DNA of 28,485 nt from a virus. The first letter of the stretch is position 1. Each line of letters starts with the position of its first letter. Shown one piece after another: positions 19,521-21,075 of the stretch. A program made the translations under genes and the position numbers. The notes under the pieces were generated by a model. The model was not told the origin of the DNA. It was given only the letters and a program-made list of their open reading frames with translations, and ran no database searches. Location: positions 1 through 28,485 of IMG/VR virus record IMGVR_UViG_3300020457_001375. One strand, written 5' to 3'.

Positions 19521-20014
19521 TATCTATTACGATGAAATTTTTCTAGTGGTAGCAGACTTAGCAACTGTACCTCGTTTTCATTAACCTCAAAGAAAAGACT
19601 GTCTGCATTCTTTGGGATGTAGTAATGTAGAGTAGACACGGGAAACTTATTGTTATTTATAGCACTTAATCGAGCATTTGATCTCATATAGTGTATGTTG
19701 GCACCCAGTATCCTATCTTTTGTAGTTTCTAAAAAGTATATTAATGGAAACTCGTCCCATACTTTTAGTTGATCTTTAAATTTTGGTTCGTATTCAAACA
19801 TGTACCACTTGTCTGGTTGTGGGTTCTCAGTGGCATCGTCTAGTAATATATTGAATACCTCGTCTCTAAGTTTAGAATTAGATATTTTACTTCCTTTTAG
19901 TTTTTGAATAAGTCCGTCAAATCTTGAGTTCTCGCTCTGTGACGAGTTTGAATTCCCAGAGTCTGTCTTTGCAGTATTGTTCTGCAGCGTCCCACTTTGC
20001 TGTGTTGGTGGCAT
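19520..20014 (-). CDS. Conserved phage structural-region protein, 164 aa
   Basis: Residues 1-30 are Ser/Asn/Gln-rich and low-complexity. They are followed by a helical part (FDGLIQKLKGSKISNSKLRD), then a conserved domain: WYMFEYEPKFKDQLKVWDEF, PLIYFLETTKDRILGANIHY. I recognise the F-x-Y-x-PK ... FPL ... LGxNxHY pattern from T4-like phages, where the function is unknown. The start at 20014 overlaps the end of gp4 by 98 bases; the next ATG is at residue 72, inside the conserved domain, so 20014 is the better choice. Confidence 0.7.
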   Translation of the reverse strand: MPPTQQSGTLQNNTAKTDSGNSNSSQSENSRFDGLIQKLKGSKISNSKLRDEVFNILLDDATENPQPDKWYMFEYEPKFKDQLKVWDEFPLIYFLETTKDRILGANIHYMRSNARLSAINNNKFPVSTLHYYIPKNADSLFFEVNENEVQLLSLLPLEKFHRNR

Positions 20015-20354
20015 AGGTCATAACCTCCGTTATGTAACGTTTGGTATGTCGTTTTTGAGGTTTAGGTTCCTGCGTTTGCTTCTTAGGTTTTACCTCAATT
20101 AGATATGATTGTTTCTTGCCTGACTTTTCATGCACTTTAATATAGAAATCTGGATAGTATCTACGCCATTTCTTTGACACGGGGTCTTTATATGGTATAG
20201 CTAGTTCCTCACTCCACCATTCGACAATCCTAGGGTTGCCATCACACCAATCCATAAACTTTTTTTCCCACAAAGAACGATATACTACAGTTGTGGGGTC
20301 ACCTTTGTATTTACGGTAATTTCTTACTCTGTATTTACCTTTATAAGTCGGCAT
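19917..20354 (-). CDS. gp4: Head completion protein gp4 (T4 gp4/gp50), 145 aa
   Basis: A head-completion protein, needed before head and tail join. It starts MPTYKGKYRVRNYRKYKGDP and contains VVYRSLWEKKFMDW, a WWSEELAIPYKDPVSKKWRR segment, YYPDFYIKV and LIEVKPKKQTQEPKPQKRHT: the same order as T4 gp4. The D-x(n)-E-x-K pattern (PDFYIKV ... LIEVK) suggests a PD-(D/E)XK nuclease fold. The ATG at 20354 matches T4; an upstream in-frame ATG at 20519 lies inside the divergent gene. A late promoter sits at 20381-20388. Confidence 0.92.
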   Translation of the reverse strand: MPTYKGKYRVRNYRKYKGDPTTVVYRSLWEKKFMDWCDGNPRIVEWWSEELAIPYKDPVSKKWRRYYPDFYIKVHEKSGKKQSYLIEVKPKKQTQEPKPQKRHTKRYITEVMTYATNTAKWDAAEQYCKDRLWEFKLVTERELKI

Positions 20355-20359
20355 AAATA
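20352..20359 (+). promoter_or_regulatory. Late promoter, plus strand (tail/baseplate operon)
   Basis: CATAAATA, 27 bases before the ATG at 20386. The first three bases (20352-20354) are the complement of the gp4 start codon. TAGG in the leader (about 20378) may be the ribosome-binding site. Confidence 0.78.
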
Positions 20360-20380
20360 AATATATCACACCATAGTAGG

Positions 20381-20388
20381 TATTTATG
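20381..20388 (-). promoter_or_regulatory. Late promoter, minus strand (gp4-gp53 operon)
   Basis: On the minus strand the bases read CATAAATA, 27 bases before the gp4 ATG. Its CAT (20386-20388) is the complement of the tube-gene start codon, mirroring the plus-strand promoter. Confidence 0.78.
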
Positions 20389-21075
20389 GCAACAACTGCC
20401 ACTGGATTACAAAGTTTTCTAAAAAGAGTAGGTAACTCTGGTGGTATATCAGCATCCAATTTATACAGGTTCGATATACAACCATCTGAAAAACTGAACA
20501 AATATTTTACGGACAACATAGGTTTTGACAGTTCTAATCAAGACCTAGTGCTATTTTGTAATGAGATACAGTTGCCTGGCGTAACATACTCAGCAACTGA
20601 TGTTAAGTCAGTTCACAAGGGTATCACACAAAAGATAGCATCTGCCAAGGTATACAACGAATTAGATGTTAGTTTCTTCATGGATGCTGATTCAACACCA
20701 TTACTATTCTTCCGTGCATGGCAAGATTTTACAATGGGTACTAAGTCTACCAGTGGAGACTACGTAGGTGATTTTCCTACAGGTAGAACACAAGCATTTG
20801 CTATGAACTATTACAATGACTATGCATGTGAACTTGACATAGTAAAGTTAGAGAAGTATAATGAGAAATTAGCGAAGGAAAATAAGAAAGGCGAACCTAA
20901 GTATAGAGAATCTTGGAAAGCGAGACTATATAAAGCATACCCTTACACTGTCTCATCTATACCATATTCCGCAGGTCCTGCACAACTTGTCAAGGTCAGC
21001 GTTGGTTTTTACTATGAGTACAGTCAACTAGGACAATTACAACCACCCTTCCAAAATAGAGTTACTAGCAATTAA
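20386..21075 (+). CDS. Tail-tube-family protein (gp19/gp54-like), 229 aa
   Basis: A beta-rich protein of the tail-tube family. Segments: SNLYRFDIQPSEKLNKYFTD, VLFCNEIQLPGVTYSATDVK, ELDVSFFMDADSTPLLFFRA and a C-terminal YPYTVSSIPYSAGPAQLVKV strand, as in the T4 gp19 family. It is longer than gp19 (163) and lies at the head of a hub operon, so a tube-initiator role like gp54 is likely. The order tube, chaperone with frameshift, tape-measure-like protein is that of many myoviruses. A separate gp19 is expected elsewhere in the genome; that is inference. Confidence 0.7.
   Translation: MATTATGLQSFLKRVGNSGGISASNLYRFDIQPSEKLNKYFTDNIGFDSSNQDLVLFCNEIQLPGVTYSATDVKSVHKGITQKIASAKVYNELDVSFFMDADSTPLLFFRAWQDFTMGTKSTSGDYVGDFPTGRTQAFAMNYYNDYACELDIVKLEKYNEKLAKENKKGEPKYRESWKARLYKAYPYTVSSIPYSAGPAQLVKVSVGFYYEYSQLGQLQPPFQNRVTSN

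Follow-up and report, generated by a model that had tools for sequence, protein, structure and literature searches.

The window analysed here, a stretch of 28,485 nucleotides, is a 28-kb fragment of DNA from a virus of marine cyanobacteria. Its record itself extends over only 28 kb, and its nearest named relatives are the Prochlorococcus phages P-HM1 and MED4-213 (Eurybiavirus). Two divergent structural operons are separated in it by a gap of 31 bases (Table 1). The gene identities given in the initial annotation, gp4 on the minus strand and a tube-like gene on the plus strand, are confirmed by matches to head closure and tail tube families, and a comparison by sequence of the tube-like protein with solved structures found no resemblance. 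Two copies of CATAAATA face each other across the gap, and, as had been noted, each contains a CAT that is complementary to the ATG of the opposite gene. The distance from each motif to its own start codon is the same in both directions, with 26 bases in between, so that the 27 bases reported earlier hold when counted from A to A. The frames of gp4 and gp2 overlap by up to 98 bases (window 19917-20014) if gp2 starts at 20014; the overlap annotated in P-HM1 and MED4-213 is 65 bases. The ATAAATA inside gp2 is probably a second late promoter of the minus operon.

Table 1. Features at the divergent junction (window coordinates)
Feature	Position	Strand	Remarks
Late promoter (predicted, -13 to -6), tail-tube-like / gp26 operon	20352..20359	+	CATAAATA; CAT complements gp4 ATG; facing motif in 73/73 distinct junctions
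Second overlapping copy, AATAAATA	20356..20363	+	clear of gp4 start codon
Late promoter (predicted), gp4-gp2-gp48-gp53 operon	20381..20388	-	CATAAATA; CAT complements tube gene ATG; P-HM1 and MED4-213 counterparts are the sole ATAAATA on that strand per genome
Start sites (predicted)	20365..20375	+ and -	+ about 20365 (20369 from second copy), - about 20375; from the T4 rule
gp4 ATG start codon	20352..20354	-	phrog_218 match from residue 3; annotated homologue in P-HM1
Tail-tube-like gene ATG start codon	20386..20388	+	in 35 loci this ATG opens a frame of 218 codons or more, one shortened by contig end
gp4, head closure / head completion protein, 145 aa	19917..20354	-	phrog_218, E = 5e-59
Tail-tube-like protein, 229 aa	20386..21075	+	phrog_45, E = 2e-31; PF23849 (tail tube), E = 8e-17
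ATAAATA inside gp2, second late motif of minus operon	19654..19660	-	about 134 nt before gp48; CTAAATA at corresponding place in P-HM1 (7231) and MED4-213 (106552)

The T4 late promoter is TATAAATA at -13 to -6, of which position -13 is weakly conserved in many T4-like phages, S-PM2 among them; in Aeh1, CTAAATA fills the role of late promoter (PMC1524935). The late motif described for the cyanophages S-PM2 and Syn9 is NATAAATA (PMC2984593). Such promoters are read with the help of gp55, which flips the base at -12 and opens a bubble in the DNA that spans -12 to +2 (PMC7892883), and the genes for gp55, gp33 and gp45 are annotated in P-HM1. At the junction, a motif of the NATAAATA type stands 26 nt before a late structural gene in each direction. 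This spacing resembles that in P-HM1, where sense copies of ATAAATA peak 20-29 nt before gene starts (12/21 copies). The start sites predicted from the T4 rule lie within one base of those proposed initially (20366 and 20374); they would be about 10 bp apart, and the two predicted RNAs would overlap by about 11 nt. An AUG-GUG-UGA mini reading frame at the predicted gp4 transcript start was considered and set aside; it is possible, but the frame is not kept in all relatives.

The conservation of this arrangement was followed in gp4 loci that were gathered by protein similarity and not by motif, yielding 108 marine T4-like phage loci with 73 distinct junctions; these loci are kin to one another, so that the junction counts do not represent independent events. 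A pair of [A/C]TAAATA motifs facing each other is present in every one of the 73 distinct junctions, with a gap of 16-23 bp between the 7-mers in both of the groups into which the loci fall. The close group comprises 35 loci with 20 distinct junctions; here gp4 lies next to the tube gene, and CATAAATA overlaps the tube ATG in 20/20 distinct junctions. The open frame from this ATG spans at least 218 codons in every close-group locus except one that is ended by its contig. The N-terminal residues of the tube protein vary widely, yet the motif over the ATG persists, indicating that it is not explained by the protein sequence. On the gp4 side of the same group, the motif overlaps the ATG in 10/20 distinct junctions, and in the other 10 gp4 begins one codon later, with ATG or GTG, while the motif stays in place as CTAAATA, GATAAATA or TATAAATA. 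In the second group (73 loci, 53 distinct junctions), gp4 is found on the other side of the junction, where it diverges from gp48 in annotated relatives. The forward motif is CCTAAATA in 46 of these junctions and TATAAATA in 5, with two others, and the reverse motif overlaps the gp4 ATG in 50/53; in the remaining 3 the start codon has moved and the motif is kept. Five more distant loci (L291, L293, L294, L296 and L298) were left out of the tally, and four of them also carry TATTT-ATG at gp4.

Two further features of these junctions are worth recording. Cyanophages differ in the side of the divergent promoter pair on which gp4 lies (L201, L205 and L212 versus L202-L204 and L206-L210), as if the gene had been inverted, and yet either layout retains the motif at the gp4 start codon. 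In many relatives (L219-L297), the leftward frame on the gp48 side has an apparent TTG or GTG start near the promoter, not an ATG.

The initial annotation described the two promoters as interlocked late promoters that lock the two operons together, such that a change in the first bases of either would destroy a start codon. The comparison among relatives bears out the facing pair and its overlap with start codons, and on the tube side the overlap is constant. On the gp4 side, the start codon has slipped in 10/20 and 3/53 junctions with the motif retained, indicating that selection acts on the promoters themselves and that the lock can open. At the level of single bases, A-12 and T-11 do have a double use. 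The C of CATAAATA corresponds to -13, which is not conserved in many T4-like phages including S-PM2, so that only the A and T serve both functions. The second plus-strand copy, AATAAATA, had been overlooked, and since it is clear of the gp4 start codon it further loosens the lock on that strand. Taken as two facing late promoters that overlap opposite start codons, the predicted arrangement is strongly supported by these comparisons.

The number of motifs is not informative in itself. Three copies of CATAAATA are found in the window versus 2.3 expected, and the count alone is therefore no evidence; what makes the pair significant is where it lies, its conservation and the rarity of wrong-strand copies across the genome. 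Similarly, CATAAATA-N(10-40)-TATTTATG was dropped as a diagnostic pattern, as a scan of viral contigs gave mixed sequences among the matches listed, indicating that the pattern alone is common and uninformative.

The rarity of wrong-strand copies emerges from genome-wide counts. In P-HM1 (181 kb), the mainly coding strand has 28 copies of ATAAATA and the other strand a single one, whereas a second-order Markov model predicts about 27 and about 31 copies, respectively; this skew far exceeds that of any other A5T2 heptamer. The sole wrong-strand copy is the promoter of the gp4 operon at this very junction. CTAAATA is distributed 25 versus 1 in the same genome, its single copy lying in gp2 before gp48. 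In MED4-213 the ATAAATA counts are 27 versus 1, the single copy being at the same junction as in P-HM1, and its wrong-strand motifs occupy the same two places (the gp4 junction, and gp2 before gp48). Over 13 cyanophage genomes (P-HM1, MED4-213, P-SSM7, Syn33 and nine others), the counts are 455 versus 45, a roughly tenfold lower number on the non-coding strand. The skew is far weaker (37 versus 21) in the T4-type phage slur02, whose late genes lie on both strands. Because ATAAATA contains TAA in one sense frame, a stop-codon constraint would act in the opposite direction to the skew. The skew across the 13 genomes suggests selection against antisense late promoters; a literature search on the avoidance of promoter-like motifs found nothing.

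These data also bear on other ways of reading the junction. The TATTT before the ATG could be a translation-start context, leaving the antisense ATAAATA as a by-product with no promoter function, and the location of the motif directly at start codons in an AT-rich region would fit this idea. However, TATTT-ATG is found at only 1 of 240 annotated gene starts in P-HM1, that of the tube gene; where the gp4 start codon is shifted, the motif remains at the promoter position as TATTTAT or TATTTAG, and elsewhere it is almost missing from that strand. A translation-start context is thus already largely refuted and very improbable. A single active motif, with the second a chance or decayed copy, is somewhat less improbable, though still unlikely. 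The annotated phages Sf-CH5 and SynMITS9220M01, which show the gp4-directed motif only, are consistent with it, but both motifs are kept in every one of the distinct junctions, and the minus copy is the one whose counterparts stand alone on their strand in P-HM1 and MED4-213.

Least probable of all is a palindromic operator or an RNA hairpin that controls both genes. The two 8-bp arms are exact inverted copies, and the initial annotation regarded the whole 37-base stretch as a near-perfect inverted repeat. This description does not hold, as 20/37 positions match their mirror and 16 of these 20 are the arms themselves. The inner 21 positions have 4 mirror matches versus a mean of 5.4 after shuffling (P = 0.81), and the folding of the strand does not stand out (z = -1.0); on these grounds the palindrome and hairpin ideas were rejected. 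Nor is the symmetry maintained when the junction is compared among cyanophages, a check that had been suggested: the arms differ in most relatives, most Kyanoviridae-type junctions having CCTAAATA forward and CATAAATA reverse, and the gap varies.

The best explanation, to which we assign a probability of about 0.83, is that two T4-type (gp55) late promoters stand face to face, with predicted starts about 10 bp apart, and are used by one polymerase at a time. Both would be read by the RNA polymerase of the host together with phage gp55, with help from gp33 and the gp45 clamp. Each -10-like motif overlaps the opposite gene's start codon, with the bases at -12 and -11, A and T, being the same base pairs as two letters of that codon. 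The motifs, their positions, their conservation and their scarcity on the non-coding strand elsewhere are observed; from the T4 rule we infer that initiation would occur at about 20365 (+) and 20375 (-), placing the two bubbles (-12 to +2) side by side. Two polymerases should not both fit, and initiation should therefore alternate, with each DNA copy read one way at a time, a mutual exclusion deduced purely from geometry. With many replicated copies present, both operons would still be expressed late. That start codons and promoters overlap is probably a consequence of a gap close to the shortest possible; leaders in this phage group are usually about 20 nt long.

Since only one polymerase would fit, the facing pair might go further and constitute a conserved switch, in which any one genome copy would at each moment yield the gp4/gp2/gp48/gp53 mRNA or the tube/gp26/gp51 mRNA but not both, balancing the two operons, with the paired promoters also letting gp4 change sides of the junction without loss of a promoter. 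This extension is speculative, and we consider it doubtful.

The spacer between the motifs is itself well kept. In 20 related junctions chosen for a 16-bp gap, a choice that makes the fixed motifs in this set no independent evidence, the majority base accounts for 84% of the spacer versus 66% at third codon positions and 48% upstream. The conserved spacer is seen at window 20364-20380 and in relatives (TATGGTGTGA, TATGTGACC). Its conservation indicates that a further signal may be present there, possibly a gp4 leader or ribosome-binding site.

The predicted promoters resemble those described for S-PM2 and Syn9 (PMC2984593) in motif (NATAAATA), in their site before late structural genes and in the gp55 sigma system that would read them, but here two of them face each other, each over the opposite start codon. 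Between genes 53 and 4, the sequences of slur02, JS98 and Acinetobacter phage PhT2-v2 likewise contain facing late motifs, TATAAATA...TATTTATA. In these phages, unlike here, both start codons lie outside the promoter pair without overlap, and in slur02 and JS98 Shine-Dalgarno-like sequences intervene between promoter and start codon. Judged by its sequence, the cyanophage arrangement is a tighter version of the facing late motifs of T4-type coliphages. In E. coli, argE/argCBH and bioA/bioBFCD have face-to-face, overlapping divergent promoters with repressor operators between them. The junction is similar in that its promoters face each other and each is predicted, from the motif positions, to be transcribed through by the other; it differs in that no operators were found between the promoters and in that start codons are embedded in them. 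In the bidirectional promoters of E. coli and Salmonella, a single pseudo-symmetric -10 element serves both directions, and the diverging starts, usually 18 bp apart, flank it or lie within it (Warman et al.; PMC12825309, PMC10268837). These, too, have two opposite starts on a short stretch where one polymerase excludes the other, as would be the case here. By contrast, the junction has two separate -10-like motifs, 21 bp apart, that flank the predicted starts, and the predicted transcripts overlap. The junction is best filed as a variant on known late promoters in a known face-to-face layout.

A predicted promoter and an opposite start codon share the same bases over a large group of viruses. 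The cases in which the start codon moves and the promoter stays provide a natural experiment, in which the dual use comes apart. Furthermore, the data point to strong selection against late motifs on the non-coding strand, which would aid the prediction of late promoters and open the cost of antisense late transcription to testing.
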